The position numbers were made by a program, and so were the translations under genes. From Dictyophora rubrovolvata (taxonomy: Eukaryota; Basidiomycota; Agaricomycetes; Phallales; Phallaceae), in contig CP114121.1 of assembly GCA_029959195.1 (NCBI GenBank), forward strand, positions 1,612,001 through 1,676,000: a stretch of 64,000 nt of DNA, in the 5' to 3' direction. Shown piece by piece: positions 4,078-43,443 of the stretch. Position 1 is the first letter of the stretch, and every line of letters starts with the position of its first letter. The notes under the pieces are model-generated. The model ran no database searches and was not told the origin of the DNA. It saw only the letters and a list, made by a program, of their open reading frames with translations.

Positions 4078-4301
4078 ATCTGGCCATGAGAATATATGTA
4101 TATTTAAAAAAGTTATCAACCAGTGAATAGTCATAATTGTACGATAAAACTAATTTTTGTACTACTATGGGTCATTGGATTCTGCTGTACCGGAGTCCGC
4201 CGAGTCATGGGTCCTTGAAGGTGGCCGGAGTCGTGTGGGCCTCATAACCTGACTTATCACTACCATCTTTCGCATTAGTTAAAACACTAAATAACACCCA
4301 T

Positions 4302-10033: not shown

Positions 10034-13000
10034 TTAGAAGGAAAAAAGTGCGGATATAGTTGGGCACACCATTGTGGCTTCCTCACAAAAACGTAACGCT
10101 GCACGCAATTCAAGAGGCAACTTCGAGGGCAGTACCACAACATGTACTGGGGGAGTAAAAGGCCTTTTGTGGGCGGCGGCGGAAGAGATATTCTATGGAA
10201 GTTCAGAATCTTTCCTGAAATAGGATATGCTTAACATACCTCAGCAAGGGCTAAAGCTAGTTGAATATCGGTGCGTTTCCCCCGTGCTTCGGCTTTGATT
10301 AAAATATAAACTTCTAATCTGCAATCTATGACGAAGATGCCTTCCTGTAATTCTCGAGCAGAAACAGAAGGAAGAACTTGTACCTGAATTTCAAATTCAG
10401 GGCTTTTGTTCCAATTTCGACCGAAATTTCGACTCACTGGCGTTCTCGTCTTAGATGAATCAATAGCATATATACGTGCGCCTAATCTGTCCAGATGATT
10501 TCTGAATTTCCAATGATGCGCATTGGCGTATTCAGCTTGTCCCAAAATCATCCAGAAGATTGCATCCTCCGACCTTTCTTTAAACTCGACCATCGGTAAC
10601 GAATTTTGCGAAATAGTGGCGGCAAATGTAAGTGCTACCTTCTGTTCAGCTTCGGACGATCCGCGACCGTGCCATATATATATTGTTCCCAGAATAGATA
10701 GGCAATAACTGTAAGCAGAGCATAGATTCCATACGCCCTGAGAACCATATAAGCTTTAGAGAATGAAACGATGGTAGTAGTGAAATTTTACCAAATCAAC
10801 CTCATCGACAAATATACAATCACCAATCTGGTGGACACGATGCATCGTGGTATTTTCAGCTGACCAATGCGACCGCGTACCCTGAAAGGATAAAAGAGTA
10901 ATGAGAACTCAGATGACAGGTAATACGATGCAACCACACTTGTCGGGTAGCCAAGACGCCGCCCAATACATGTATTAACAATGGAGGCTCCGATCCTTGA
11001 AAGCAGTTCACCTTGTACTTCGTAAGTGATCTAAAGGAGAAAATGATAGATATAATCCGTATACAGCTTTTTTATCAAAACGTCCTGCCAGGTCAGTTGC
11101 CTTGCGTCCCTCACGGTCCCAGCTCGAGTTTTTTCCGCGCCAAATCCAAGCTTGGTTTGAAACAAGTTCTGAAGAATTCGATTTCGACCGATAAATGACA
11201 ACTATTACTTCTGTATCGTAGAATATATTCTGCTCCTGGGTAATTGGTATTATCGCTCCACCGGATATAATATTGACTTCGATTGATATTGTTTGTATGG
11301 TGGAATCAATTACAAAGGGCGGCTCTTTCATGACCTGCTGTGGATTAAAGGGAGGGGGGAGCTTCGCCTGAAAGTCTGGGGGACATCAGGATGGGAATGA
11401 GGTGGAGATACAAAAGCATGACCTAATTCCACCATTTCAGTTTCATTGTTTTGTGAAGACCTCTGAATTGCTTCCGGCAACTTTACATTCGAATCATCTA
11501 ATGCTCCGTTAGTAACAATTTTCTGAATTGTTCCACAAAGGCTTGTTACTTTCTCCTTGAGATATATCTACAGTTTGCAATTGCTCCTTGGGGGCACGAA
11601 TTGATGGTACCTGGGCTCGTTCCCGGTTAAGGGTACTGCGAGATAAAGATGCTTGCGGCGTTTCCACAGGGGTTTGAACTTCAACAAGCGGAGGTAAGGT
11701 AGTTGCAGTAGCAACAGAATACCTCTCATAACTAAATTTTCTTGTCTCAGACGAGGATGCAGGAACAAAGTTCCGGCCCCAACGAGCGACTATAGCTTTC
11801 ACATCTGCTCGCGATATCTCTTCTTCGTTTTGAACATCAGAGGTTTCATCTTGTCTTTGATCTTGCTCAGGCTTTTCACCGGTGATTTGTTCGTGTTCTT
11901 TCAAAGCCTGTGCCACGTCCATAACTGTTGGGCGCTGCCCAGTGCTGGGTATACGACCAGGCCGATTGGGAGACCTAGGTGATTCAACACCAGGCAGGGC
12001 TGAAGGCGTAACTGGGGTGGTGGGCCGTGCAGGTTCAGCTATGAATTTTTTTACAACGACGTTTTGAGACGGGGAATCATCGATCGTACCAACTTGGGGG
12101 GAAATCAATTCGGCGGACTCTTTTAATTCCCGTTGTTGACCATCGGGGTCACTGTCGCTGCTGATTGTGGTGTGTGTGTGCTTTTCTCTTTGGGGCTTTT
12201 TAGGACGACTACGAGTTGGCTAGTTTTTCTGGTTAAATCGAAGGTACACAGGTATAATATATCTGCTCACATGATTCAATGAGGTGTTAGCCATAACGGA
12301 GGTTGATTTGTGAGGAGACGCAGACACTGAAGTAGCAATGACGTTGGATTCAGTTGATTTATATGTGCTGCGTTGAATATCCCCAGAGACCATTCCAGGA
12401 AGACGGATTGGAGCGGCTTTCGATTCTCCAATTATTCCTTTAGAAGCGTCGTTACTGGACTTATGAGCAAGAGGACTGGTGTCAGGTTTTTGGACCGTTT
12501 TAATTTGTTCAAGTGTTTTCGTCCTTTCTGGGATTGCAGATGTTGGTGTGTGCGAAGATAAAGCTGGTTGCCATCTGTCTAAGACTGAAGGACGCTTCCT
12601 TAAGTTTGGAGGAGAGTCATTAGTTCGTCCTTCAGTCTCAGAGGGAGGAGACTCTTTGGAAGGAGTAACGGCCTTGACCCTTTGAACGACAAAGCCACGA
12701 CCCTGTAACTTGGTCAAGCTAGGATGTAATTCCTCTGTTGTTGGACCAGGTCGTAAAAACGCGGGCGCAGGGGCCGGAGACTCAGGTACGGCAGTAGAAG
12801 GAGAAATGTTGACGTGAGGTTGTGTTGATCGTGCAAGAGAAGGAACGGCAATAGAACCCAAAGATGTAGAAGGATTGGGTCGAGAGGAGCTAGGTATAGC
12901 GGGTTTTGATGAAGGTGGTACCGGAGGGACAAGTTGTGTTTTGGTCAAGCCTGGTAACGGTCGTCCTTGGAGAATAGAAACGCCAGCAACTTCACTATCT

Positions 13001-13740
13001 TCTTTCACCGGATGAGACTTTGTAAGTCGAGGACCTGATCCTTGACCGCCAACAGCCTCCGCCAACGACGTGGTCCGCATTGATGGGGTAGGTTTCGGAA
13101 TGGAGGCATTATTACTAACGAGTGATGACGCGACTCCAGTTTTTGGTTGAGATAAAAGACTAGCAGGTCTAGCATTCGACTGTGCTTGTGAAGGACGTAT
13201 AAGTGCTTTTCCAAAGATTGGATGGGGACCGTCGTGTTTGGGCAAATCAAATAGGTCTGCATCATAGTGATTGACTTGAGGTGCAGGCTTCGTAAGAACC
13301 GGTCCAGTTGCACGTCCTCCAATGAAAGCAGCTAAAGAGATAGGTTCTTTTGGATTATTCGATTTGGATTCGGAGGCCGCAGGACGTTTGTTGATAGTGT
13401 TGATATCCTTCGCAGTTTTGTTTACATTGTCTCCCGATACATTCTGAAGTGAAGAAATCGCAGTAGAGGCATTTTTTGCTAATATTATCACTGAACAAAA
13501 TGACGAAGTTGAGATTCACGAGTACATACTCCAATCGACCGATGCGGTGTTTCGCCGTCTCGCTCGTTCCAACCTGGACGACTCTATCTCTTCCTGCAGT
13601 CTCCGTTGTTCGTCTTCTGTATCTTTATCAACTTTGTCCTGGATTGCCCTTACTTTACTAGCCCATTCAGAAAGTCCCGCATCAGTGGCTTTCGGCAGAT
13701 CGAATGAAGTGAGCCTTTTGGAGAGTGAGGGATTATCCAT
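10034..13740 (-). CDS. DUF4045 / gelsolin-repeat protein (villin-like)
   Basis: Fungal protein with an N-terminal DUF4045 region and C-terminal gelsolin-like repeats. Gelsolin repeats bind, cap or sever actin filaments, usually under calcium control. The start at 13740 gives MDNPSLSKRLTSFDLPKATD, then a charged coiled helix (DEQRRLQEEIESSRLERARR). A long Pro/Ser-rich region (about 13491-11509) contains repeated FIGGRATGPVLTKP-like blocks. A first gelsolin repeat is seen at 11331-11008 (YDTEVIVVIYRSKS, then NQAWIWRGKNSSW, with the classic W-x-G core). A second spans about 10880-10240 (IGDCIFVDEVDL, then ILGTIYIWHGRGSSEAEQK and DAIFWMILGQAEYANAHHW). The last exon (10034-10192) is joined in phase after an intron at 10193-10239 and ends with PPVHVVVLPSKLPLELRAAL. 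Roughly 1,000 residues with many small introns. Outer ends are firm; some middle introns are approximate. Confidence 0.82.
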
Positions 13741-14412: not shown

Positions 14413-17400
14413 TTAGTCAAAGCCTTTGTCAACACCAGAAGTTATCGATAACACAGCGCTGGCCCAGTCTTCTTCTTCGAATGATGACCTTCGTAAATGG
14501 AAGCTGATATGGGGTGGAGAAGAGGGTGTAGAGGACCGAAGTGACAAGGATCTTGACCCAGATCCGGCTTCAAGGTCTCTCAGCGAAAAGGATAGATCAT
14601 GTTCTGGAAAAGTGTTCGCTTTATCATACGAAGAGTCTGAAGCAGAAGCCGTGGAGCCCTCAGCAAACGACGAGAGAATGGAATCGATAATGGTTGGTGA
14701 GGCTTGTAAGTATGGATCATTGAAGTTCTCGTCTGCCCCTGCGAAAACAGTAGCTGGAGGATGTGTCCCATGTGGACCGTTAGTACTGAAGAAATCATTC
14801 GAAGAAAGAAGATATTCTGTTGTTGGACGGTGAGACGACGGCTGTAACAACTGCGATTCCGTCGACCCTGACTGAGACTGGTGAATCGGCATTGTAGGCT
14901 GCGAAATTGCAACAGGTCGGGGATGTAAGGAAGCAGTGAACGATGTTGGAGGCGGTGTTGGTAAAGATAAGGAACCGGACGATTGAGTGGAGGCTGGCGG
15001 AGGCGAAATGCTCCTATCTTGCGCCGTAGAAACACGGAAAACGTCCTCCCATCCCAAACTGCTCTCACCGCTATCCATTCCCAAACTAAGCGTAGGAGGT
15101 GTATCGGCTACGATGACTGTCTTTGAGGTCGTAAGTGAAGGTAATACCTCTTCCCATTCACCTCCACCCCCTACATTCTGGAACAGAATCGGTCCGGATA
15201 TGGTGGGTGTTCTCGACCGAGGTGAAGAGGACGAAGTCGATCCACTTGATCCATGCTTCATATTAAATAACAGGTTTAGTGACGGACGACGTCCCATTCT
15301 TTTAGAAGGTGACGGTGACGCAGAAGGGCTGTCCTCCTCCGAAGTAATATTATCAAACGTTTTTGAATTCCGTTGAGCAAGGCCGATAGTGAGTTTCTTG
15401 AGTGAACTTGGCGACACTGGAGCCTGAACAGCATCTGGGTTTGAAGCACCGATAGAAGGAAACACTACGCTAGGTGTAGAGGCTCCTGAGGAACCAAGAA
15501 GAGATGGGCTTGAAAAAGACCCTATACGATTCATGCGACGTTGCTTTGAATGCGATGATTTGCTGGCTTTGTGGCCAGCACCACGGACGCTTGTCATAGC
15601 ATGCTCCGATGATGGTATTGCAGCTCTACGGGCTGTGAGAGCAGCAGAGAAAGCCGAAAGCGAGGTGGGTGTACGAGGCGAAGCAGGCAACGACTTATCA
15701 AAGTTGTAATATTGGTCAGTGAGTGGAGAAGACGACTTGGGAGACTGATTAGGCGGAGTCCTATGAAAACGAGGGGTGTTGTTATTAACACGAATGGCAA
15801 GGCTCATCCCAGTCTCAATATCCGCATCGCCTTCAGAAGACAATAATGACACTTGCGAGACAGTTTGAGAATTTGAATTCGGCTGTTCCATCGACTCCGA
15901 GGATTGAAAAGATACCATGGAATCTGAATGTGGCAGTGTTTGATCACCTTCTGAAACTGATGGCGAAGGACTCGAACCAATGCTGACCGGGTTACTTTGA
16001 CCGCCCTGCTTATCATTCACTTCTTGCAGATTCAACGGGGGTATGGGTATACGCCGAATCTGCTGTCGATGTTTGTTTTCTCTAGTTTTCGAAGAAGGTA
16101 TCAAGATGACATCCTCGTCTGCAGATATTTCCAAATTTCGCTCGTATGGTTTATCGTCTGTTTCATCGTCTGTTTCATCATTCGGTAAAGATTCCGTGGT
16201 TGTCACATCATTCAAATAAACAGAATCTTTCACTGTGCTCTTTTCGTCTTGGTATTTGATCGTTTCCTTCTCTCCAGTGTTTTGACTGTGATCGTCTTCA
16301 GAAAGCTCGTGTGAATGTGCTGCGTCATCGTCCTTTTCTCGTAAGCTCTCATCTTCGTCTGCCTGATTTTGCTGTCCATCAGGATGGTCTGACTTCGTGC
16401 TGGCCTTCATGTAGCTCTCTGAGGCTCCTTCCCAGACCGATGGAACATCACATAGCACCCTCAAAAGGGTCGGCGACATACTCAGGCTAGGACAAAACAC
16501 AAGTAATAAATTGCTCAAAGGCATTTTCGTTATGGAGTGGTTCGCCGCAGTCGCACGAATAAGCTCCACAACCGTTAAAAGCAAGTCATAATTCTCTTTG
16601 GGAAGACGGGATACGAGATCACGGACGATGTTGGTGAGCGTAAGGCTAGGAGCGCGAAGCGTTGATGTATTAGGTAGCGTAAAAGTCGAGAGCGATGGTG
16701 GTTTACGAAGAGCTTGCGGAGATCGGGTGATGAGATTCATGTTCACTGGAGAAATAGGACTCATCGCTTTCCCCGTGATGTGCGGTCCACTTGTACGACT
16801 ATTTTCGGCATTAATGGCATTATCGAAAAGAGGACTTAATACCCGTGTAAGGATCACGTCGGGAACTAGTGGTTTAATTAATTAAATTAGTTCATTTGAA
16901 CCAGACTTGTGACATACGTTCACGAAGATATGCTTTGAATACCGATGCGACAGCATGTGGATCGAGATCGGCGGGCGGACAATCAGTAATGTCATAATCA
17001 GCTCCTAGACAACTATTAGACGACAGCGGCAGAGCAAAACCAACAAAAACAAGACGATACGAACCTCCATCAAAATCACTCCTCAAGCGCGCTACATGTC
17101 CTGCACGTCCAGATATCCTATTGTGCAACAAATACATTAGTATGAATAGATTATGATTTGACAGGGAAGAAAGAAACCGGTCATGAGAACATGCTCATGA
17201 TATAAGAAATATTACTCTAAACTTACCTGAACAGTCCCTCTTCTTCCAGACCCCACTTATGCAGATGCTGCACACAACGGTAAATTAAAGCAGGAATCAT
17301 TCGGGACGCGAGAGGATCATTCAGAGACGACGCAGTCGTCTTAGTGTCCTTAACGCACTCCCATAATTCCCTCTTGAAAACCAAGCCTGACGGGGCACGC

Positions 17401-19364
17401 GGTGGGCGAACAAGTCTCGGGCGTGAGACTAATGAAGCGAAACTGCTAGGTGTATCGCGTCCGTCGCGCTCAGATGACGATCTCGAACCTTGGGATTGAG
17501 AAGGGATAGACCACGAACCAGAACTGTTAGGCGGTCGTTTTGAATTAAATGCGGACGGGCCATGACTTAAACTCCGGTCTTGCCCTACGGGATATAATTG
17601 CATCGGTGATCCACTTATAGGACTCGGGTGGTGATAACTAGAGGTATCGGAACCCGAGCCAGACCCAGTATGTGAACTTGCCCCTCCCCACACCCTTCCA
17701 ACTTTCTCGTAGGCTTTCTTACCCAGACCAAAAGCCATGGCACTAGCATTGTTTGTGAGTGATGTAGCTGCTTGACGAATATGACCTGCTGAGCTAGATA
17801 GAGAAGAACTGGAGGGCGATCGCACACGACTTTGCATCTGACGAACATAGCTCACAGCTTGTAAATCTGTTACACTTGCGTCAGATGTGAGAGGTGTCCT
17901 GATATGGGTTGAGCTATAGCCAGTGGATGTGGTGGAAAGTAATGAGGGGGATGACGTTGACGCCTGAGCGACTGGAGACGGAGAGGGCGAGGGTGTACGA
18001 TGAGAAGGATGAGCCCAAGCAGCTAGACGACCTCGTAAATTGTTATTTTTCGGGGGATGAATGACAATTGAGGCAGGAGAAATGCCACATCCTTGGTTGG
18101 TGATTGCTGTGTCGGTTGCATTAGCTGCCGAAGCGAATGACGTGAAAGGTACAGAGTTAGTAGACGCATGGGAAGAAGATACATGGGGATGATAGTGGTT
18201 CAGCTGGGAAGCATGGTGCCCCCGAGTCGATGAAGTACTGGGTATCGTCAGGGACAATGATCTTCGCTTCGCTTGTTTATCGGGGGCGGTACTGGGTCGT
18301 TCGTGACGCTGACTGGAAGGCGAGGCTGTAGTAGAAGCGGGAGCAGAGGGAGGAGGTCGAGGCTGTACAGCAGGTTTCCACAAGATATCCTCCTCGTCTA
18401 TGTCTTCGGCGTTATTGCTACCGGCGAGATAGGCACTAACACGTCTGCTCTCAGACGGCGTCCCAGTACTGGTGGCAGGTCTGACGGTGTGACCACTATC
18501 CATTGTCGAATCGCTGCGTCTCCAGCGTTCTTTGGTTTCTTCCGAAGCAGAAAAGGGGGTTCCGGAACGCTCGGAATGATCGAAACCCAAAGGCGCGACA
18601 CCCCCGATCCGTTCGGCGACAGCAACGACCATGCTTGAAGGTGAAGAGGGTAACGGAGACTTGGTATTACTGGACTGCTTTAACCGTGGCTTGGGAGGGG
18701 GCAATGGAGGGAGATGGTTTGTCTCCGGAATCACAGAACACGATGATAAGTGCATTTGTACTTGAGCTTGAGACTGCAGCTGGGAAGGAGGATGAGAGGG
18801 TGATGCTGGGGAAGATTTCGATAATGGAGGGGTAGACAAAGAAGTTGAAGAATGTGTTGTTGTACTAGGATTCAGCTTATTATTATTAGTACTGTAGTTA
18901 ATGTTATGATTATTAGCCTGTGCTTGTTTTTTGGCACTAAATATGTTCATAGAAAGTTTTGCAGACGAGGGCTGAGATGAAGGAGTGGACTGAGACTCTG
19001 CTGGCCATGGATTATTCAACGGACTATTCGGGAGAGAAGGAGAGTTAGCTGGAGAAATCACAGCCAGTAGCGAGCTAGAATCCTGGGACTGTTTACGACG
19101 CTTCCCAAATGCCCTTTTGAGCTTTTGCGTTGTCGAAGCCGTAGAGGTAACGATGCCCAACTGAAAAGGGGGTTGCTGGAGTGACGCTGACGACGGGGTC
19201 GAGGAGGGGCTTGCGGCAATATTATATTGAGAGATATCGCCTCGAGGCATCGAGTTGTCAGATTGTGAATCGTCGAGAACGAAAAGAGAGGACTTCGAGG
19301 AGCTGAAGCTGGAAGATGATCCAATAGAGGACGGGGTGAAAGTGACGACTCGATCACTGTTCAT
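14413..19364 (-). CDS. Large Rho GTPase-activating protein (RhoGAP)
   Basis: A RhoGAP of roughly 1,590 residues, which would switch off Rho/Cdc42-type GTPases at the cell cortex. The start at 19364 gives MNSDRVVTFTPSSIGSSSSF. About 640 Ser/Pro-rich, poorly ordered residues follow before the GAP domain. The GAP domain is split over three exon blocks. The first is SGLVFKRELWECVKDTKT to HLHKWGLEEEGLFR. The second is RISGRAGHVARLRSDFDGG to DLDPHAVASVFKAYLRE. The third is VILTRVLSPLFDNAI to LLLVFCPSLSMSPTLLRVLC. The arginine finger is the Arg in EEGLFRISG, interrupted by an intron at about 17137-17222; further introns lie near 16860-16900 and 17000-17065. After the GAP domain comes another roughly 650-residue disordered tail. 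It ends EEEDWASAVLSI near the stop at 14413, matching the end of the Ser-rich protein encoded at 7948-8956. No BAR, PH, SH3 or LIM domain is visible. Confidence 0.88.
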
Positions 19365-19606
19365 GCCCTCTGATTGTCGCGGAAAATGCTGTGTGTATCG
19401 TCGTTGTCGACGTGGATGATGATGATGAATGATGGACGTGTGTGTACAAGTCTATTTTACTCGGGACTGGGGTCTTAACTCAGGTTTTGCACATGGCTTC
19501 CCTGTCACTACTACGGTCACACCGCTGAGACGAACAATTATGGTAAATCTAAAATTATCAAGTAGACAATAGAAATGGAAATCTATCAGCAGCACCCGAA
19601 ACCCCC

Positions 19607-21100
19607 TTAGACAGCATTCAGCAACTCCTTTACTGTCTCATACGTGAAAAATCTTGGCCATAGTTGAGTGGAAACGATACAGGTAAAAAGGTACAGAGGC
19701 AAACACTTACGATGTAGCAATGCTTGGCGCGACTTTTACTACAAGAAATTAATGAATCGAATTCACATGCAAAGAAAATGCAAAGAAAATGCACACTCAC
19801 GAAGATTCGGCCATAAGCCGCGATAGAGACCGACAAACCCTTCGTTCTTGATGATCTCTTGTAGTGCTTCCAAGGCACCATTGTATTTGTAACCAAGCGC
19901 ACCCTGGCCCATCCCAACTACTTGCATCTTCCGTCGCAAAACATCAAATGGATATGTTAGTGTCTGCGAAATCGATCCTGAAAACTTGTATTATAGATAT
20001 GTTTGATGCCAATGATGGCTACCTTACCCGCCAGTGCACCACATGCTAGCTTCCTCACAACAGTAGCCTTGCCCGGGGGTGTGAGGACTCCCCGTAAAGC
20101 CTCATAAGCAGCGAAATTTATCCCAACATAGGGTGCGACACCCATAGCAGTGGTTACCAACCCCCTATACAACGCACGGACACCACCTTCTTCACGCATG
20201 ACTTTCAATGTCATGCCCCAAATTCCGAGATCGACCGCCCTTCGTGAAGCAGTGATCATATCACCAGAGATGGTAGCTGCGGCAGTATGGTATCCTGAAC
20301 GAGCACCAGCTGACGCGGCAGACAAGGTTGAATTGGCTTGATTCTGTAGTGGCAGCGACGCTGATGCAATGCTCAACCGCGACCTCACAAGGTCAAGAGG
20401 ATACGTGGTGCATACCGACGTGATGCCCGCTAAGGCACCTGCCGCAAGACGTGTTGGCGTATCCAATGGTCGCGATCCCTGAAGGGTGAACATCTGCAGA
20501 GGCGGGTCACTCATAAGTATGAAACTAATGCGCAGTTTAACCAGCGGAAAGATTTCTCACCTTTTTCAGCTGTTCGTAACTAAAATAAAAATTGGAGTAT
20601 CAGTTCTCGGTGCCTCTAAACGAGATCCTTTGATAAACTTACGTTGTAAACTGAACCGCACTATACGGTACAATCCTCAAACAATTGATACCATTACCTC
20701 TCATAAATCCTTTGAATCCTTCTTCCCTCCACATTCTGACAAGACTTGCCCATACGCCCCGATACTGTCCGGACCCAGATTTCGGCTGGACTTGCCTTTT
20801 TTAAAGTTCATATGAGAACAGTGCATGTACAATGATTAACCGCACCTACTGAATAATTTTGAGTCGCTCCAAAGGACTGACAACTGTGCGCGATGTAGCA
20901 CCAGCGATACCGCCTGCAATGAAATACGATGACACTTGCGGATCCACAAAGCTCAGTACAGAGCGTTTCGAGCTACCCGCTGAGCCAGATACTGATGCGG
21001 ATGTTGAGATTGTCTTTAACGCATCACTTTGTGATCTGACCTCTCCTACGCGACTCTGTTCTCCAGAGGAAGAAGATGGAGACGAATTAGCAGTAGCCAT
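19607..21100 (-). CDS. Mitochondrial carrier (SLC25 family)
   Basis: Inner-membrane solute carrier with the three-repeat mitochondrial carrier fold. Each repeat shows its Px[D/E]xx[R/K] signature: SPLERLKII in the first (after SSYFIAGGIAGATSRTVV), YPLDLVRSR in the second and YPFDVLRRKM in the third. The segment GNGINCLRIVPYSAVQFTTY between repeats places it near the APS/PAPS carrier of yeast (YPR011C type) and the ATP-Mg/Pi and CoA carriers. The substrate cannot be fixed from sequence alone. The start at 21100 (MATANSSPSSSSGEQSRVGE) gives a short Ser-rich N-terminus without the EF-hands of calcium-dependent carriers. The last exons are very small: KVAPSIATS, then FFTYETVKELLNAV and the stop at 19607. 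It diverges from the dynamitin gene with 226 bp between the start codons. Confidence 0.88.
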
Positions 21101-21326
21101 TGAAGAGATTATGGGGAAGGTGAGGGGGGGAAGTAAGGGTATAATGATATTAGAAGTCCATGCAACAGGTTTTGCGTTAGGAGATGTGGAGTCAAAAAAA
21201 CAACACAGAAAAACGATTTCAGCAGTGCGCCGTGGCCGTGGCTCGGAGGTTGCCGAAAGCCGACACATAGCTGTGATCCCGACTGTCACTGTCATTGTGA
21301 GTATCCTAGGCACCACACCGATAGCG
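21101..21326. promoter_or_regulatory. Shared divergent promoter region, carrier / dynamitin
   Basis: The 226 bp between two divergent start codons must hold both promoters and both 5' leaders. No clear TATA box or other element stands out. The assignment rests on gene layout only. Confidence 0.5.
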
Positions 21327-32375: not shown

Positions 32376-33665
32376 CTACTCCTTCGTCTCAGCTTCTAAC
32401 CACTGCCACAACGTTTGCCCCAATGCAGCATCTTCAGCCTCCCGTTTCATTTCGCTCAGGCGAGCCCAAGGGATGAAATACTTTTGTTATCTTCAGTATT
32501 CAAATAAAAAGTTTCTTGAAAGATTATAAACGAACCTTTCCATTGAGATTTGCAGTCTCGGGGGATACCGCAGCATACAAGGGTGTCAGTGCACCAAATG
32601 GAGCAGGAGAGAACATCCATCCCTGCATTATTTCCATTCAATTTCCTTTCAAAACAAAATACCTCTTACTTACAAAAAGTGCCATAAACAGCCGTGGAGT
32701 ATGTCTTTGCAAGTCTGTTTTTAGGTTTCCTGGATTAACGCTATTCGACATTATTCCCTTGTCTCCATAACGTTTTGCAAACTCATTCGAGAGGACAATA
32801 TTTGCCTGTAAAAACGAATTGAATCAATGAATAAATCCTCACGCGTTTATCGGACAAACAACATACAAACTTGCTTTCGAGGTAGAGTTGAGCTGGACCC
32901 AACTTCTTCAATGCTGTGACGTCCTTCATTGCATCAATGTTGACTGTTTTAGTGAACATCATTGCAGACGAAGATGTGTGAACGACGTGTGATTTGCCAT
33001 CTGCGGAAGTTGTGGCTCCTGCTTCAAGCAGCGGAATGAGTCGTTTCGTGAAAAGGTAGTGACCAACAACATTGACTCCGAACTGCAAATCAATCCCATC
33101 AGCGGTAAGCTGCCCGGGAGGTGTATTCATAACGCCCCTGATGAAGATATAATCACATCCCAAATATACTCAGTCGTAATCGAGGACAAACCCGTTGTTG
33201 AAGAGCACATGTAAAGCAGTTTCTTTCCTGACAAATGTTAATTAAATCATGAATTAGAATAACCAAAGCGAGTAACGAGACCAGACATACCTTGCGAATT
33301 CATCGGTTGCCTTTCTTACCGAGTCGAGATTCGCTAAATCCAACTCCAAGAAAAATGCTTCTTTTCCTGTCTCCTTTTTCAGGCTCGCAATTGCTGCATC
33401 TGCTCGTTCCCGCGAGCGAGTTGCCATATAAACTTTCGCATTCTTTGTTAGAAGAACCTGCCATGTACATATAAACTTGAGTGACCACCGAAATGGACAC
33501 GACCGTAGTCAGGAGGTGTATACATACCTTGATAATTTCGTATCCGATTCCACCATTGCCACCAGTAACGAGTATAACTTTGCCATCTAAGTCTGGGATG
33601 CTGTTTGGATCAAACTTCGACTTGGGTGGAAATGACTGAGCGACGTAGCTCCAGAGGTTGCCCAT
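32376..33665 (-). CDS. Short-chain dehydrogenase/reductase (retinol-dehydrogenase-like)
   Basis: NAD(P)-dependent oxidoreductase of the classical SDR superfamily, closest in layout to the retinol dehydrogenase/WWOX-like group. The start at 33665 gives MGNLWSYVAQSFPPKSKFDP. The cofactor motif is VILVTGGNGGIGYEI (TGxxxGxG). The NNxG block reads LHVLFNNGGVMNTPPGQL across an intron. The substrate-site Ser lies in HVVHTSSSAMM and the catalytic pair in YLESK (YxxxK). The end region is SVNPGNLKTDLQRH, then LFAGWMFSPAPFGAL, stopping after LEAETKE at 32376. About 335 residues with five or six introns. It is the first redox gene of the putative biosynthetic locus; its substrate is unknown. Confidence 0.87.
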
Positions 33666-34457
33666 GGGTATCGAGTGTGGAGAGTAGTGGCAAAGAGGTT
33701 GGGTTTAGGGGGCTAGAACTAAATTCAAATTTCATAGCTTCCAAACATTATCATTGGCTGTCAAATGCATGATCTTTGTAAAATTGTCGCCGGGAGTTCT
33801 TGAGAGGAGATAGGTCTGGGCGTGAAATAGAAGGAATCGTTGAGAGTATTTTTCACACGCTAAATATGTACACAACACCGTCGCTGATGCACAGGCACAC
33901 GTCGCCCGCCGCAGTCCAGGTGCCGTTATTTCTGGTTCTACATCAAAACCGGGATTCTATTCCTCAAAGGCACTAGTATTTGATATTCCCTATCGTCAGT
34001 TGAGGCATCGCCGCTGTTGAAGAATTTCCAGATGCAGCGTTGTGATTGCTTCATCTTATGGCAGATAAAACGCACGTTGCAGCGATCTCACAACCAATCA
34101 TCACCATCAACCAGCACGTCTTCAGGCTTATGTATGCACAGTAGAATGGGTACCTTTAGAGGCCATGTCGCAGGTAAAATTGTGGGCAGGAGGACCTAAT
34201 CTGTGCGACGTCGCATCGCGACAGTATTGCGTGATTATTGATAGCTAGAATTATTAGCCAGTCTATTCACATGTCGTGCGCAGACCCCATAATTCTGTAT
34301 TTGATTTTCTTTCGTTGTCATTAGTTAGTCGACTAGATATATTACAGTACTCCAGCTTGTTCTCTATTCGCTGCCTCATAGTTCATCCTCGAGTAAGGCT
34401 TCACAGTCCGAGTCCAATATTTCCGGCCTCGTTTTTCGTCTCAGAGCATCGGAAAAC
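33666..34457. other. Intergenic, no gene recognised
   Basis: About 790 bp between the two SDR genes, both minus strand. It holds the promoter of the first SDR and the 3' end of the second. A plus-strand frame at 34017-34199 has no recognisable content. Confidence 0.45.
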
Positions 34458-35703
34458 TCAGTCAAAGTTCGCCCCACCGTCTACGGATATGCTTTGTCCT
34501 ATAAGAGTGATGATGAGCCGGGCCAAGGATTCATGCAACGCGAGTGAAAACCTACCGGTGATGAATGATGATTCCTCCGATGCTAGGAAAGCTACCAGAC
34601 TGGCAACTTCTTCAGGCTTGCCGTTTCTTTTTAGTACGGTCTGTTCAGCGCCCTGAAAACAATAGCAGCAAAAAAGAATCAATCAAAAGTAAATTTTATC
34701 AAAAAGCCCATGAGACTCATTTTACCATTTTGGCATATGCTTCTGGCCCGCCTTCGCTACCGAGCCCTGGCATACCTTCCGTCAGCTTGACAAAGGATTG
34801 AGCGCAAGTTTCAACTAGCAATAATCAGCTTCTCTGACCCTCTTGAATTAGACCTGCTGGGCATACTCATATCCGTTACGATAACCCCAGGAGCGTATGA
34901 ATTCACGGTGATTCCGTACGGTCCAAGTTCCATGGCTGATAAGCCAATGATTAGCAAACCGGATATAAGTGATGGTTGGAAATTCTTATCATCTACTTGC
35001 CCGCTGATTGAACTAATCCCCGTATGGCGAATTTGGTTCCAACGTATGCCGAGTGAAGAAAGCCGCCTTAATACAGAGCGAGGACGATTAGAGTTACTAG
35101 AACCGATGTCAAACGGTGGTTATTTCACCTTTCTTTCCGGCCAATGATCCAGCGACGATAATCCTAAGGCTTGAGCCTTTAACGCCTTGAGTTGTTACCA
35201 AATTTACCATGGCGGCACCGGCATGCTTAATGGTAAACAGCGTTCCATGAATATTCGTATCGATCATGGCTTGAGCATCTTCATGTTTGGCTGCCATAAC
35301 AGTTTCTTGGTAAAGATAATCAGAATCAAGGTTGGCTCATGACATACTTTGAATAAGAGGGTTGATGTTGCATATTCCTGCGTTAGCCACTACCTGTTCG
35401 GGCCGTTCATTTCACCGTCAGCTGAAACTGCATGAGAGTATTACGACGTACCACGTCAAGTCGTTTGAACTTGTCGAGCGAAAAGTTGATTAATGCTTGA
35501 ACTTGCTCTTCGTCTCTGATGTCGCACGGAATAAAGAAACATTCAACACCAAAGCCGACTGCTGCCTCTAGTATGTCGCTGCACGGATTGTTAGGAAGAT
35601 CGCTGGCGACGATGTTGTATCCGTCTTTAGCAAGTCGTAAAGCAATAGACTTTCCAATGCCACGCGCGGCGCCAGTAATGATAGCAATTCGCCCAGAAGT
35701 CAT
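34458..35703 (-). CDS. Short-chain dehydrogenase/reductase (acetoin/diacetyl reductase-like)
   Basis: Second classical SDR, of the family that includes bacterial acetoin reductase and 3-oxoacyl reductase. The start at 35703 gives MTSGRIAIITGAARGIGKSI with the TGxxxGIG cofactor motif. NIVASDLPNN follows, where the Asp after strand 2 favours NAD(H). The active site is assembled across an intron: LRIIVAGSLAGKKGGFLHSA, then YVGTKFAIRGLVQSA (YxxxK). Next come AMELGPYGITVNSYAPGV and the C-terminal GQSISVDGGANFD typical of this group. The stop is at 34458. About 265 residues with six or so short introns. It is divergent from the membrane terpene cyclase, with 527 bp between the starts, which fits co-regulation. 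Confidence 0.87.
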
Positions 35704-36230
35704 GGAGAGTGAGATGGAGAAATACTATCAGATAGGTGTTTGGAGGTGGGGCCTAGAGTGCCAATTCACTATATAAGTGCTAGTACCTGGCTGAAATAAC
35801 ATTGAAAATCGTTCTCAGCGCTGGACGTATGACATACATGGTAAGCTGAATTTCTTCCGCAACTGAGATCGCATGCCAGTTTGATGCCAGAAAGTATATC
35901 TATATCATTGATGATGTCAATGGCTGGTGGCCTGATGGTCGCGCGGGCACAGACACAAGAATACGAGCGCTTAGCGCTTGCACGTCAGCGCCACGCGTCA
36001 CGCGTCACGCCAGATAATCACCTCGATATTGAAATGCCGTTTCTACACGCAACTTTGCTCTATTTTTGCTTGATTTTTCAAGTAATGCCTTTTATGTATA
36101 GTTAAATGAGGGATAGTAACATATAAAAACCATTAAAGCAAAAACCTACTAGTTGGGGACCTACAGCTCTATTCTCATTTTGGCCCTCAGGTTCAAATTC
36201 CCTCTTTTTCCCCAAGACTGCTCCCCCTCA
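35704..36230. promoter_or_regulatory. Divergent promoter region, SDR / terpene cyclase
   Basis: 527 bp between divergent starts. At about 35993-36010 there is a small cluster of CACGCGTCACGC-like repeats that could bind a regulator, but this is unproven. No frame or RNA gene was recognised. Confidence 0.45.
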
Positions 36231-37117
36231 ATGAGTGTTCAAAAGGCACCACAGAACTACTCACACCTTTTGGCAGGATGTTTGAATGCCGCATGTGGAA
36301 TACTGTGGACAACTGCATACATCTTATATGTACAGCAGGCCCGCAAGGATCAAAGCTATGGGATGCCTCTTTTGGCTCTTATTCTCAACATTAGTTGGGA
36401 GTTTGTCTATACATTTGTCTACCGTCTCAACGGCGTAGGAAGATTCTTCCATTTTCCATGGGTATTTATTGACGGGTATGTTAAGTTCAGCTTGAACTTG
36501 TTCCTGGCAATAATATTTATTCTTCTAGTTTCCTTGTTATGGAAACACTGAAACATGGTCCTGAAATATGGGAAAAAACCAGTCCAATTGTAGCCGATCA
36601 TTTCAACATGATCGTTTTCATCAGTTTGCTTATCGCAACAACCGCCCAGTGGACTTTTGCTAGCCAGTTCTCTGGCTACAACGCTAGCTTTTGGTCCGCC
36701 TATGTTTGTCAAAACGTGGGAATGCATCCGCATGAATTTATATCAGTCCTCACTGACGTATGACCTCAACAGGTTTTGTCCTGGGGTTCGCTCTGGATGC
36801 TATTGACTCGCGGAGACAGTACTGGACACTCGATGCCAATCTGGTAGGAAACTAACATTTGGTTGTTTTTCAGAAACTAATGTTGTATTATAAGGTGGTG
36901 TCGCTTCCTTGGCAGTCTTGTCGCCAATCTTCGTTATTTATATCGAGTTAAGACTTGGCCACAGAAATACGGATTCATCTCCGGTGTTTTTTCTATCTGG
37001 ATTTTATGGATGCCTTGTCTAGCTGATCTGGTATATCCGCTTGTCTTTAACTATATTAAACAAACGCCAAATCTTTTTGCCGGAGGTGCAAAAAACGCAA
37101 CTTTATTTTTTTATTAG
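36231..37117 (+). CDS. Integral-membrane terpene cyclase, Pyr4/PaxB type
   Basis: Small multipass protein of the Pyr4/PaxB/AscF family. Known members protonate an epoxide or terminal alkene and cyclise the prenyl chain of meroterpenoids and indole diterpenes. The start at 36231 gives MSVQKAPQNYSHLLAGCLNA. Conserved blocks appear in order. ILNISWEFVYTFVY carries the key Glu. FPWVFIDGFLVMETLKHGPE carries the key Asp region across an intron. Then come NMIVFISLLIATTAQWTFAS, LLTRGDSTGHSMPIW (the RG-x-S-x-GHS-like loop) and VKTWPQKYGFISGVFSIWIL, then PCLADLVYPLVFNYI. Introns lie at about 36477-36530, 36716-36772 and 36844-36894. About 230-245 residues and six or seven hydrophobic segments, the normal size. 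The stop at 37117 is 56 bp from the convergent P450 stop. The product cannot be predicted. Confidence 0.85.
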
Positions 37118-37122
37118 ATTCA

Positions 37123-37208
37123 GACCCATTCTAAATAGAGAATTCTGCATATGTCTTATAAATTAGACCTATTCTAGATAGAGAACTCTGTATATGCCTT
37201 ATAAATTA
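37123..37208. repeat. 43 bp tandem duplication over the P450 3' end
   Basis: Two adjacent 43 bp units (37123-37165 and 37166-37208) that differ at five positions, all transitions. Each encodes, on the minus strand, the same P450 ending: [10 protein letters not shown] plus stop in the used copy and IYKTYAEFSI plus stop in the outer copy. The outer copy therefore lies beyond the active stop codon. Confidence 0.88.
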
Positions 37209-39277
37209 AAGCCTTTGCTCCAGGAGATCGCGGTTTGATATGGCATTTGAAAGGAGTTGGGTGACTGTAATAGTGTAAATAAATAGTGCGGACAAGGAAA
37301 AACACCCAGACCTTATAAAACCGTCATCAAATTTGTATATGGGAGGCTGTCCGTCGACGGCTGAGATATTGAAAACTGATAAGATGGATGCAATAGCAAC
37401 AAAAAGCGTTCTCTCAGCCAGAAATCTACCAGGGCAGACTCTTCAAAGGAATTTTAACTAGCCCAGCTTATCGGCGGAAGAAATTCTTACCTTCTTCCGA
37501 AGCCGAATACGAGTTCCCTTGGGTCCAGTTGTGGGTGTGGGTCAAGGAATCTGGTTGGATCAAAAATCATCGGGTCGTGATACAGGTCAGGATCGTGGCA
37601 TATTCCCCTGTGAATTGTCATGGACATTTTATACCAAAAAATAAAGAAAAAATATACCATATGTTTGCCAACACGGTGGCGTTCCGGGGAATTTCATACC
37701 CTTGATAAAAATCTGTTGTATTCGCTCTTCGTGGAGCGCCTAGAGGCAATATGGACCCCCAGCGAAATACTTCTAGAATAATTGCATTGGTATATTTTAA
37801 CCTTTCTTGATCCGAAAATTGTGGTAGCCTGATTCCGACGTCTTCACCCAGTACGTTATCAAGCTCTCTCTGGGCCTCTTTCTGTACGTCAGGGAACATG
37901 GCCATTGCCAAAAAGAAGGTTGTAATGGCGGATACCGTCTGTTGCGTTGCAAGGATATTAAACGTATAAATCCAAAACTGACACGGGGTTACTTACGGTG
38001 TCTGAACCGGCTGAGTAAATGGAAGCTGCAGACCACATAATTATGTCCTCTTCGTCCTTGGTGAGGTTAGGGCACTTGTCCAAAAGCGTTTGAGAAAATG
38101 ATTGTGCATTCAGCTAGATATAATTTCAGATAACTATTTTCCTGCAAGTTACGAACAATAATTAAGAACCTTTTGGGCTTTTACAAGCTCCCAAGGCCGT
38201 ATGACCCAATCGTCCATTTCTCGTCGTGTCTCTTCAGCATACTGCTTAAAGTGACCACCGGGAAACCAGCGAGGTATATAGCGGACTGTCACAGATATAC
38301 TTATGAAAAATAAAGCTGCAACATCGATAGGAACGTACATATGGGGAATAGATCAACGGCCCATGTACCAGGCTGAGCATCGCGCGACAATTTTTGCATT
38401 ATGTGACCGGCCTGGAGCATGTGGTAGTCATCTTTAATTGCTACTCTATAACCATCTGTACACAATCAGTACTTACGGCAAAGACAATTCAGTAGGTATA
38501 GTACTTACAGGACACGAGCATAATAATATCCACCGTTAACCTGGTGAAGTAGTTATTAGTTTTGCGTGTTTACTAATACTAGTCAATACAAGGGAGCACA
38601 CCATCTATTATGAGAAACGAAAGCGTCTGGATCATTGAGTAGTTTGTTCAAGTATGTCGGGATTTCTTTCTCCATAATCTCTTCGTAGCGTCTACAACTT
38701 TTAGATCCAATCTCAGAATTCAAAACTTTACGAAGTTCACGCAATCGAAGGCTGTGACCGTCAGGAGCTATCGCAGGGAATCTATCAAATCCACATCTAT
38801 ACATAATTTGTTTGGTGGTTTATTTTTCCGGCTGAGAATGAACAACGTACAGTTCTCCGACCATGGTGAAGTATGGTCTGTGAGCATATAAAGCACCCCG
38901 TTTCTCAAAGAATTCACAGACAGTAGCCCAGTCATTCAGAATAATCAGATGTTTTCCAAATGCAGACAGATGGACAATTGAACCTTAAACCACTTTAGCA
39001 GCTTCATTTAAATACTACTTAAAAATGACCTGCCATATTTCTAGGGCTGTAATGAGGGGCTGTATTGGCATTATATTTCGGCTAGGACACTTACCTGTTT
39101 CCATGATTGAATACGGGTAGCCATATCAGCCACAGCGGGAAAGTCATATATATTACCGACGAGTGGATACGGTTTCGGGCCGGGAAGGTTCCTAACTTTC
39201 GAGGACTTCCGACTCGCAAGTTTCAGAAGGACTATTATGAATAGACCTATGATTAACTGAGTGAAGGGGGAAGACAT
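37174..39277 (-). CDS. Cytochrome P450 monooxygenase
   Basis: Microsomal haem-thiolate monooxygenase. The start at 39277 gives [20 protein letters not shown], an N-terminal membrane anchor, followed by the proline hinge [19 protein letters not shown]. The I-helix shows a SAGSDT oxygen-binding motif. The K-helix ExxR is in ILEVFRWGS and the PERF-like region in [17 protein letters not shown]. The haem-binding loop is assembled across an intron as [17 protein letters not shown], with the axial Cys present. The protein ends [14 protein letters not shown] at 37174. Sequence style resembles the multi-gene basidiomycete P450s annotated as O-methylsterigmatocystin oxidoreductase-like. About ten introns; total near 510 residues. 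Its position next to the cyclase and GMC oxidase suggests tailoring of a terpenoid product (inference). Confidence 0.88.
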
Positions 39278-40443
39278 GTGAGACAAGATGAGACGTGGTG
39301 AAACGACAATATGCTCATAAAAATTCCCTTATTACGATATGCGCATAAAAGCTCACCCATTACAGCTAGGCAGAAATTTAACTCCAAGAACCAATCGAAT
39401 TCGTAGGCATACAATAGGTCGACAATGTTTTGGGGTCCTTCTCCAAAAAACGCAATCGATTGATGGCCAAAATTCCGATACTCTGTGGAGAACCAGGCAT
39501 TGAGTGATGCATGATGGCGGTGGTATGGCGGTGGTATGGCGGTGACTCGACTCGCACTACCTATGTTAACCACAGCGGCCACGCTCATTTACCGAGTGGG
39601 AACATCATACTCATAGATTCCCGTATTGACATGAGAGGATCTAGCGTTTTGTGTCGATTGAGGTATATCGTGGATTAAATTAATATGCTCTCCAATCGGG
39701 TAGCCGCCCTCATTATGCACGGCGCCATATGGTGCCCATTGCTTTGATGCTGGCGGTCCTTGTGAGTTTTCCTAATATAAATCAACTACTTACGGCATAA
39801 TACAAAGTAAGCGAAATTTCCCCGACTTACTTTTCAGAACACAGATACATACCTGGATCAAGTCGAAATTAAATGATGTATCGATTGAGCCTTTTTGAGC
39901 GCACGGCTGTAGTAGGTCTACTCCGCATTTAAATTAATATCAAATGATTCGAAAAAAAGCAGTGATATTACGGCAAGAGAGCGCCACGTTAATATTGAAT
40001 TTGTTAATTAGAGAGCTTGACTCCACGGCGTCGGCTCATCTCCGCCGCGAGCTAATACTCCCCAACCACGGATCGTGTACCCCTTGGCCATTTGCAACCG
40101 GTGCAAGGGTGATGAAGGTGGATCAGGTTGTTCATGCCAAAGTGTTTCCCATTGTCAGTTTTCAAAGCCCTCGTGAGGCCTCCCGACGATACACGGAACA
40201 TCGATCAAATTATTTCACTATCCAATAATTTAACAACACATTTCGTGCGGAAAAACCTGGTTTTGATGATGTGTTATCAATACTAGCGTTGGTAAGGGAA
40301 TAAACGAGTGTTGGTAGCATGCTTCAAGTTCATTGAGTAATATTAGATTAACAAAAATGCACTAGTGCGGTCACCCTCACAATTGTTCATGAGTGTGAAA
40401 TTTATTACTATAAATAGGTTGTTGGCATTTTTCACTAAACCCT
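39278..40443. other. Intergenic, P450 upstream region
   Basis: About 1.17 kb between the P450 start and the GMC oxidoreductase stop. A minus-strand frame of 111 codons starts with ATG at 39588 and ends at 39253, overlapping the P450 start. I do not recognise it; it could be an upstream ORF or chance. A short GGTATGGCGGT-type tandem repeat sits at about 39517-39544. Confidence 0.45.
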
Positions 40444-43443
40444 TTACAAGGAAGCAATAATCATATCAGCCGCCTAGAAAAATCGGTTAAGGGTAAGCCG
40501 AAGGATAGTTGAAATGGCTCACCTTCTCAGCAACGGCGTAGACGAGGGTTTGAATATGAGTGGCCACGTGCATTGGGAAAATGCTTGTGCATACTTTATC
40601 AGTGAGAGAGAAAAAGATGTCGAAAACTACGAGTCTCACCTGGCGTCGATAATTCGCAAGTTCTGTGTTCCATAAACAAAAAGATCCTCTCCTACAACGC
40701 CTGGAAAAGAAAGGCATCAATTTTTATTATACCCGTCATCTTTGGTGAGTGGATAGTAGATACCTCCGAGTTCCTCAGAAGCAAGGGCGGCGGTACCTGA
40801 GATGTGGTAGTGATCAGCCAACGATCCTTATGTAGCGTTAGGATAGGAACAACTAACCAAGTGCGTTAAATTCCGGCTATGATGAAACTTGAATAAATAT
40901 GCTACAAGTGTGGGATAGTTTCAACGTACTGCCAAATTTGTATCTATGTAGTCATTGAGGGCTTGACCGCCTGTAATATTCGGCGAGGGGTTCAACCGAC
41001 TCTCGATCAGGTTGCCCAAGGGTGGTGCTGCAGCAATTCTTGCAGAAAGCTGAACACTCAGAGATAGAATAGAGCGATCTATGAATTTTAGTTTGTATGG
41101 GCACGATATATGCCGTCAATTTAGAATAGCCCGGCTTACCGAATTCAAAGTCCATGAAGTTGGGGTCTATGTTAGGCGGATCAAGTGGTGAATTGGACCC
41201 AATGTGCTAAATTCGCAATTATTTAGCCAGAATTCTGTGTCTCTGACATTTTTTTTTTAAAAAAAAAAACACTAACAACGGATCCTCGACTAAAAAGATG
41301 CTGGTAGACAGCGCATAATTAGTATAACTCCTCATGTAGTGTGCTAAGCATCTCACCTGGCCGAACCCAATAAGCGAAACATAATTCCTTCCAGGCACGA
41401 GAGGATTTGGTAGACCAGGAATCCCCCCTAGTAAAACCTATGTTCAATGTCTCCGACAACACGCGAAAGGGAAGTACATACCGCCAAATGGAGCTATCTC
41501 AATTTGGCCTATTTCCCCCTCTTTCAGCATCGCAATCTGCATGTTTGCTTGCAATCGGTGTAAAGTCGATAATGTTCGTTCATTCAGCTCTTTTGTGGTT
41601 TCATTAATGAGACTTGCAATTTCTGCTGGAGAAAAAAAGCTTTGCAGGGGGTGATACGAATATGTGGGAACAAGAGTCAACAGTCCGGTATGATTTTCAA
41701 GACTGTGGAATAGGTCAGTAGGCTCCTATGATATAAAAGGCTATACATTGTCCTACTAAAGAAGTTGTTGTTCCATTGCGAAGCTTGCATTATTGGTTAA
41801 ATCGTCTAAGACTGAGCTGAAGTCTCAAGTTTCAAGTATTAACGGGAAAACCTCACCTAGAGTGATGGGCGAGGGCTCTTTCAAGAGATACGTGGTCGAA
41901 ACGGAGTTATGATCCTAGGTCGTGTCAGATTTGAGACACGAGGAGGAGGTGTTGAAAATTTACCTGGAGATTTTCTCCGACAGTTGGGATATCTAGAAGC
42001 GTAGGAATCCCCAAACTTTTTAAGAGAGAACTATTTCCTATGCCCGATAATTCTAAGAGTTGTGGCGTTTGAATTGCTCCTATACAGATATTTTTATTTC
42101 GGGGATCCACGGACATGATGAAGAAAAATTACCCGCTGTTAGTAGAACCTCACGAGCAGCAGTTGCGGTATATGTGACATTTCCCTGAATATACTCAAGT
42201 CCAGTTGCAGTAAGTGGTGTAGAATTACTCGAAAAGAGGATTTTAGAAATCTGATAATTGTCATCTGTTTTTGATTTTATCGACGGTTCAGGTGTACTAG
42301 TACTCACCCTTGCGCCAGTTAGTACCAAGAGGTTCTCCCGTCCTTGATTCGGAATAAAGTATGCTGTCGCAGCGTATGAACGATTTCCCGTGGCAATATC
42401 CACCGAATGTTGTGAATTAAAGACACCAATGTTATTTCCACCTTCCTGAACCCACACCTCGTGAATCTCTTTATCAATAGAAAGTGGTACAGACTTACAG
42501 GAACTTGGTTTAAAACAGCCCCGATGTTGAGAAAACTCTGTACGGTCGGCGTCTGAACCCCTGTAAATGTCGGGTCGTAGCTGACTTGAATGGGACCTTT
42601 CCGGCCGTTTACTGAAGAATCAACACCAGAAGGTTGCGTGGAGCCGGGAAATGCTGCGCTGCTCCCGATGCTGACATTTTCCGATTTAATCATGTAAGGG
42701 AGAAGACCATCCCAGTTCCAGCCACCTTGTACTCCGAAGTTTGACCAATTGTCGAGGTCGTCCTTCCGAGGCCGAACCCAGGCCATGGCATTCAGTCCAC
42801 TGGAGCCTCCAATCATTTTTCCCCTATAAAAATGTGCTCAAATATCTTGGTTTATTTTTTAAAAAAATTACCGTGGATAAGAGACTATACGGTTTCCTAT
42901 ATTGTCTTGGGGAATAGTATTAAAGCCCCATGAAAGAGTTGGATTGGTGAAAGATTCTCCAGATAAACCTAAATAATAATGATCAGTATGGTTCTATAAC
43001 GAGATCACCGTACGTATTACCAGGGGTGTCTACAAGGGGATTCTGCCCAGGGATGATAAGCTCTCCTGCTTCAATTACACCAATCTGGAGCGAAGTTCCT
43101 TCAGACAGTCTATCCAGGCACGTTTAGACAAAGATACTAAAGAAGTCGAATGGCATGACATACCGCGCCGCTAAAGTGATGCCAGCAGTTCCTCCTCCTG
43201 AGGTATGTAAGAACACAATGATAATCGATTTCAGCACATTTTATATACCTGCAATAAGAATATCGAATTTTTGTTTTGAAAATATCGAGGCGTCAGAGGT
43301 GATGCCTAGACATTCTTATTAGTGATACCTTTTTGCTTTTACTTGATAATGAACGTACCATGCGGAGAGCCCGTCGCAGCGACCGTCTTCAGCAGGCACA
43401 ACGCCGCTGAAATAATACTGGGATGGGACAGCTTGGAAAACAT
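40444..43443 (-). CDS. GMC-family FAD oxidoreductase (aryl-alcohol oxidase-like)
   Basis: Flavin-dependent alcohol oxidase or dehydrogenase of the glucose-methanol-choline family. The start at 43443 gives [20 protein letters not shown], then VAATGSP, a likely secretion signal. The FAD-binding motif is joined across an intron: FDILIA + [13 protein letters not shown]. The second GMC signature is [21 protein letters not shown] third is [20 protein letters not shown]. The catalytic His block reads [20 protein letters not shown], and the end shows [20 protein letters not shown], then AADMIIASL at 40444. In the family the first His of the HYHISGTA block is the base; here it is present. Roughly 600 residues with many introns. 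It may act on a secreted product or on lignin-derived alcohols outside the cluster pathway. Confidence 0.87.

Follow-up and report, generated by a model that had tools for sequence, protein, structure and literature searches.

A Pyr4-type terpene cyclase among redox genes in Dictyophora rubrovolvata: a putative small specialised-metabolite gene cluster

We found five consecutive genes around a Pyr4-type transmembrane terpene cyclase in a 64,000-nucleotide stretch of the genome of the basidiomycete Dictyophora rubrovolvata (contig CP114121.1, here C5, positions 1612001-1676000; this whole stretch is referred to as the window). The genes extend across window positions 32376-43443 and encode, in this order, two short-chain dehydrogenases/reductases (SDR1 and SDR2), the cyclase, a cytochrome P450 and a GMC oxidoreductase. 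We tentatively read the locus as a small basidiomycete specialised-metabolite cluster composed of a cyclase and redox genes, whose products would act together on a prenyl substrate made elsewhere. The locus is real, and clusters of this kind have already been noticed in print by genome mining (Tang et al. 2024, PMC11109268). The genome comprises 28.24 Mb in 11 contigs and has short introns. Gene models were obtained with a small home-made gene finder trained on long open reading frames (ORFs) and then refined by three-frame reading by eye, without transcripts. The resulting features, with lengths in amino acids (aa) and Pfam matches with their E-values, are as follows.

32376-33665, minus strand: SDR1, 311 aa; TGGNGGIG and YLESK motifs; adh_short, 8.1e-29
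34458-35703, minus strand: SDR2, a classical SDR, 273 aa; TGAARGIG and YVGTK motifs; adh_short_C2, 2.7e-53
35704-36230, no strand: divergent intergenic region between SDR2 and the cyclase gene, 527 bp
36231-37117, plus strand: Pyr4-type transmembrane terpene cyclase, 237 aa, 4 exons (36231-36475, 36529-36703, 36773-36843 and 36895-37117; introns of 51-69 nt); Pyr4-TMTC, 2.7e-61
37174-39277, minus strand: cytochrome P450, 505 aa, 12 exons; p450, 3.3e-61
40444-43443, minus strand: GMC oxidoreductase, about 644-655 aa, 20 exons in the scored model; GMC_oxred_N (PF00732), 6.8e-30, and GMC_oxred_C (PF05199), 7.5e-22

All five genes have spliced frames that stay open, and most of their introns are of ordinary type; each gene matches a Pfam family. 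The cyclase gene diverges from SDR2 across the 527-bp region and converges with the P450 gene, from which it is separated by only 56 bp, while the P450 and GMC genes lie in tandem with a gap of 1.17 kb. Order, orientation and outer coordinates agree with what a first-pass annotation of the DNA had proposed, and its description of a Pyr4-type cyclase accompanied by a redox set is likewise supported by the gene models and the Pfam matches.

The cyclase scored 207.6 bits against PF25129 (Pyr4-TMTC; cut-off 27) and covers profile positions 3-226 of 227. Judged from its sequence, it is a genuine member of this family encoded by a seemingly intact gene. Its hydrophobicity profile has eight peaks, two of which overlap, where about seven membrane helices are typical of the family. 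We used this single protein to scan a collection of prokaryote genomes, a search that reaches close relatives only. Two of the 12 pattern matches encode a cyclase relative, one in Longimycelium tulufanense and one in a Clostridia bin, and the two bacterial proteins are 28 and 30% identical to the fungal cyclase. In the alignment of these three proteins, the block NISWEFVYTFV, which holds E57, is invariant, as are E57 itself, D81 and D208, the last located near the C-terminus. The essential acidic residues of Pyr4 are E63 and D218. We take E57 and D208 to be their likely counterparts, based on an alignment without a fungal reference. No solved structure matched the cyclase by sequence (best E 0.67). 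A structure model of one bacterial relative, built from two sequences, showed seven long helices at a mean pLDDT of only 56.4.

Additional information on the cyclase came from a second copy in the same contig. Apart from this copy, which is old and broken, no other PF25129 cyclase was found in the genome (profile search, three of three candidates scored). The copy is located at C5:293.3-294.1 kb (positions 5227-6130 within C5:288001-298000), with a Tc1-type transposase ORF (PF13358, PF01498) at a distance of about 1 kb. At the place that corresponds to the start of the window gene there is no ATG, and exon 2 contains a frame change. Nucleotide similarity between the two genes is confined to the gene and amounts to 72% over 918 columns, with an identity of 74-81% in the exons compared to 46-61% in the introns. 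Over 234 codons, leaving out one aligned stop codon and gapped codons, dN was 0.17 and dS 0.68, which corresponds to a dN/dS of 0.25. E57, D81 and D208 are all kept in the broken copy. The contrast between exons and introns, the dN/dS value and the retained acidic residues together indicate that the exon model of the cyclase is right in outline and that selection kept the protein after the duplication, both branches taken together. A diverged GMC gene is situated some 6 kb from the second copy (C5:299796-301631); pieces of it are 30-44% identical to the GMC oxidoreductase of the window, and it is perhaps the remnant of a sister cluster.

The classical make-up of a meroterpenoid cluster, with a core enzyme and a flavin adenine dinucleotide (FAD) epoxidase beside the cyclase, was not found in our searches of C5. 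The contig has no match to UbiA (PF01040; 10 of 10 candidates genome-wide scored), to ketosynthases (PF00109; nine of nine scored), to DMATS (PF11991; two of two scored) or, among the best 20 of 48 candidates, to FAD_binding_3 (PF01494). It also has no match to PF00348, the family that covers the PaxC-like enzyme of the geranylgeranyl diphosphate (GGPP) synthase type, and none of the oxidosqualene-cyclase type. Genome-wide, the matches are all off C5: 10 UbiA pieces in six loci, eight ketosynthase pieces, three pieces of one DMATS gene, at least 23 FAD_binding_3 pieces (13 loci), one piece of the oxidosqualene-cyclase type and six isoprenyl diphosphate synthase pieces. The lack of a core enzyme that had been reported for the window is supported by these searches and, with some caution for FAD_binding_3, extends beyond it; a missing core on the same contig was rejected within the same scope. 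Within the window, 30 ORFs delimited by stop codons and lying in the gaps or around them (25 from at least 48 listed gap ORFs plus five others, with several larger models of the outer window, such as 49-5087, 11328-13740 and 14413-21295, left out) included no terpenoid-type family. Above cut-off, these ORFs matched a PIG-V mannosyltransferase, a gelsolin repeat and Kelch repeats.

The redox genes carry the expected features of their families. The P450 has a hydrophobic N-terminus, AGSDTT in the I-helix, the ExxR motif as EVFR and the haem loop FGFGRRVCPG, and it scored 207.9 bits against PF00067. Its introns measure 47-61 nt, and the model needs a 7-nt exon (39034-39040) followed by a GC-AG intron (window 38984-39040), the only one of this type among 11 introns. 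Among its paralogue pieces in the genome, the one with the highest score shares 47% identity with it across 163 residues, and shorter ones reach up to 53%. Comparison with solved chains yielded 28 matches at E <= 1e-30 of the CYP1, CYP2 and CYP21 types, which is uninformative on the substrate. TGxxxGxG and YxxxK are marks of the SDR family, and both are present in SDR1 and SDR2. The single solved chain matched by SDR1 (3rd5) bears no functional name, and those matched by SDR2 include butanediol dehydrogenase and diacetyl reductase; the last exon of SDR2 (34458-34498) was assigned by eye.

The N-terminus of the GMC oxidoreductase is hydrophobic and, by eye, signal-peptide-like. Its best solved chain is 7vkd, itself a GMC oxidoreductase, with an alignment over nearly the whole length. 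Splicing is unsure at two places. At 41757-41914, reading by eye suggests the exons 41857-41914 and 41757-41805, which would lengthen the scored model by about 11 residues; this version looks better. The second place, 40764-40876, concerns the active site, which in GMC enzymes consists of a His before a GT motif and a His or Asn near the C-terminus. Here, two overlapping readings differ in the residue that precedes the GT motif. With an intron of ordinary type and 61 nt, the protein reads PEFNALGTAAL and has Asn in place of the His of 7vkd; an intron of 31 nt would instead retain another stretch (11 protein letters, not shown), with His. In three of five paralogue stretches His occupies this position, and the other two have no match to the motif. 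At the second active-site position His is present.

The cyclase and redox genes stand in a row between ordinary genes, which supports the cluster reading. To the left are the PIG-V mannosyltransferase and a peroxidase (PF00141), which by eye is of the cytochrome-c-peroxidase type, and to the right an ATG3-type gene (PF03987) and Duo1 (PF08651), with DUF6534 and DUF6699 genes between; the last two families are in keeping with a basidiomycete. Genome-wide searches for the redox families scored the best candidates only (92 of 262 for P450, 69 of 73 for GMC and 19 of 148 for SDR), so that all counts are lower bounds. The 104 P450 rows correspond to at least 84 loci. The GMC matches correspond to at least 28 loci, a grouping based on 49 of 63 rows, with another 11 rows of the window gene and three of loci already represented set aside. 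With distances taken between match starts, at least four P450-GMC pairs lie within 6 kb of each other, at three places, the other two being C7:1010-1019 kb and C4:2735 kb. Random placement leads to an expectation of about one such pair genome-wide, and of more if P450 loci are undercounted. An adjoining P450 and GMC gene is not common in this genome, which counts for a cluster. At the C7 place (C7:1010411-1019246), a P450 gene is found between two GMC genes, of which the one at 1017-1019 kb is the best-scoring paralogue of the window GMC.

Published systems place the locus in a wider context. A survey of 1990 fungal genomes by Tang et al. yielded 1050 pyr4 loci, 25 of them in Basidiomycota; 690 of the 1050 had no additional core gene, and some pyr4 clusters were missed by antiSMASH (PMC11109268). 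Homologous clusters without a prenyltransferase are named there for Marasmius tenuissimus and Psilocybe cf. subviscida CBS 101986. As far as their description permits a comparison, these resemble the locus described here in combining a pyr4-like gene with potential biosynthetic genes and in lacking a prenyltransferase or other core enzyme. According to the same source, ascomycetes were the origin of every fungal member characterised by that time, in agreement with the earlier remark that basidiomycete members are little characterised. Our literature searches, with coverage mostly outside the subscription literature, turned up no characterised basidiomycete Pyr4-family cyclase, and the relevant passage of a review on Floccularia deals with UbiA-type cyclases only (PMC12733772).

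The first-pass annotation had further assumed that cyclases of this type need an FAD epoxidase, and this part of its interpretation was not supported. MfmH of Annulohypoxylon moriforme cyclises an un-epoxidised farnesyl chain (PMC10882540). Similar to the locus in the window, the mfm cluster combines a Pyr4-family cyclase with a GMC gene, an SDR gene and two P450 genes and has no epoxidase; it differs in its ascomycete origin and in having its own polyketide synthase (PKS) and DMATS-type prenyltransferase. In another system, farnesylated 4-hydroxybenzoate is turned into a product with mosB, mosC and mosD alone, by a proposed route without epoxidation (PMC11109268). In zigralone biosynthesis, the epoxide used by a Pyr4-like cyclase is made by a P450 (PMC13307353). 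The zig cluster differs from the locus described here in being bacterial and in containing its own UbiA prenyltransferase, polyprenyl synthase and thiamine diphosphate (TPP) enzyme. These results imply that the P450 of the window can be an activating or a tailoring enzyme.

Two further comparisons concern the origin of the substrate. AscF belongs to the Pyr4 family. In the ascochlorin pathway AscF, and in 3,5-dimethylorsellinic acid (DMOA)-type meroterpenoid pathways the respective cyclases, use an epoxidised farnesyl chain, and P450s act in tailoring; unlike the locus described here, these pathways start from polyketide orsellinic acid (PMC8902786). Pleurotin of Hohenbuehelia grisea is a meroterpenoid from a basidiomycete, as is the organism studied here, and its UbiA enzyme is in no cluster found by fungiSMASH; the cyclase of this early pathway is not identified in the portion of that paper considered here (PMC11574748). 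Most characterised Pyr4-family members in the cited papers act on attached chains.

For the cluster with an externally supplied substrate, the following route may be envisaged. The cyclase would protonate the far end of a polyprenyl chain, either at an olefin or at an epoxide made by the neighbouring P450, through acidic residues of which E57 and D208 are the likely pair. Protonation would generate a cation, and folding of the chain would then give a ring system that is decalin-like or larger. The P450, followed by the SDRs and the secreted-type GMC oxidoreductase, could oxidise the cyclised product, converting alcohols to ketones or aldehydes. The chain itself would come from outside the cluster, where an unlinked UbiA prenyltransferase would most likely build it onto an aromatic or quinone acceptor. 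The first candidates for this enzyme are two COQ2-like genes, one at C6:1380 kb and the other at C10:795 kb, of which one should be the ordinary ubiquinone gene. We place an attached chain, with its acceptor made elsewhere, slightly ahead of a free polyprenyl substrate, because of the family members that act on attached chains, the pleurotin UbiA enzyme outside clusters and the presence of two COQ2-like genes, the one on C10 beside a P450 gene.

The six UbiA loci differ in type. The C10 gene is COQ2-like (fragment, 111 bits, below cut-off), and a P450 gene is directly beside it (C10:794619-798084), which leans towards a split route and leaves the strength of our readings unchanged. The C6 gene is weakly COQ2-like (fragment, 33.6 bits, below cut-off). 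At C8:1096 kb, a phenol-hydroxylase-type flavoenzyme (PF01494 and PF07976), which we take not to be an epoxidase, is encoded 4-6 kb from the UbiA gene. The locus at C2:1824 kb is COX10-like (TIGR01473 above cut-off), and those on C1 and C4 carry NQ...ED..NKP..RPIP, which we take to be a mark of UbiA-type terpene cyclases. The flanks on C1, C2 and C4 were covered to about 1.5 kb.

Several observations weigh against the cluster reading with a substrate from elsewhere. Nothing links any UbiA locus to the cyclase cluster: no locus with evident pathway neighbours was present among the C6, C8 and C10 flanks, and the C6 neighbours all look ordinary by eye. The mfm GMC and SDR genes are not needed for the mfm product (PMC10882540), and the ordinary intron in the GMC gene of the window would place Asn at the position of the first catalytic His. 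No word of 7-10 bases is common to all four upstream regions tested. Finally, the P450, GMC and SDR families are large in this genome, so that a neighbourhood without a single pathway is possible. A rival explanation is that a stand-alone cyclase happens to have P450, GMC and SDR genes as neighbours that serve catabolism or the decay of wood. The absence of a common upstream motif, the GMC-P450 pairs on C7 and C4 and the many surveyed pyr4 loci without an additional core gene are consistent with such a chance neighbourhood. However, a cluster is favoured by the unbroken run of five redox and cyclase genes with ordinary genes on either side, by the 56-bp gap and by an expectation of about one GMC-P450 pair genome-wide, before the cyclase and two SDR genes are added, and we consider chance quite unlikely.

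A possible, if somewhat weaker, alternative to a substrate made on an acceptor elsewhere is that the cyclase acts directly on a ubiquitous polyprenyl molecule, such as farnesyl diphosphate or GGPP, the corresponding alcohols or another isoprenoid, and that the P450, the GMC oxidoreductase and the SDRs decorate the resulting terpene; the cluster would then be self-contained and would lack no prenyltransferase. To our knowledge, no characterised Pyr4-family enzyme acts on a free C15 or C20 diphosphate, which counts against this explanation. In its favour, genes for isoprenyl diphosphate synthases occur at other places in the genome, the family acts on squalene-derived substrates in onoceroid pathways, and a purely terpenoid route was put forward by Tang et al. 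for the two basidiomycete clusters without a prenyltransferase, although their statement is a suggestion and not a result (PMC11109268). That the locus is a complete terpenoid pathway, in which the cyclase takes a free polyprenyl substrate after epoxidation by the P450 rather than a flavoenzyme, and which operates without prenyltransferase, PKS or canonical terpene synthase, seems unlikely to us. Decay of a cluster that lost its core, with the remaining genes drifting, would fit the broken second cyclase copy, the GC-AG intron of the P450 gene and the odd active-site exon of the GMC gene. The five readable frames with mostly ordinary introns and the dN/dS of about 0.25 for the cyclase pair point in the opposite direction, and we regard decay as very improbable.

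Loci of this kind can be missed by cluster finders that are based on core enzymes. The five genes are few enough for joint expression, which makes the question of a free or an attached prenyl chain directly testable.

Four minor observations concern related genes elsewhere. The only DMATS-type prenyltransferase gene found in the genome is located at C6:169763-171041, near neither cyclase copy, and two PKS-type ketosynthase genes lie about 20 kb apart at C9:973898-995257. In Longimycelium tulufanense (contig positions 155-6126), the Pyr4-like cyclase adjoins two P450-like ORFs and a 945-aa ORF that seems to consist of two acetolactate synthase units; judged by eye, this neighbourhood resembles the make-up of the zig cluster. 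The Clostridia protein, which has the full NISWEFVYTFV block (contig positions 408-1127), is encoded next to an ORF that by eye resembles arginyl-tRNA synthetase, on a 3.3-kb contig of a metagenome-assembled genome with no evident terpenoid gene.

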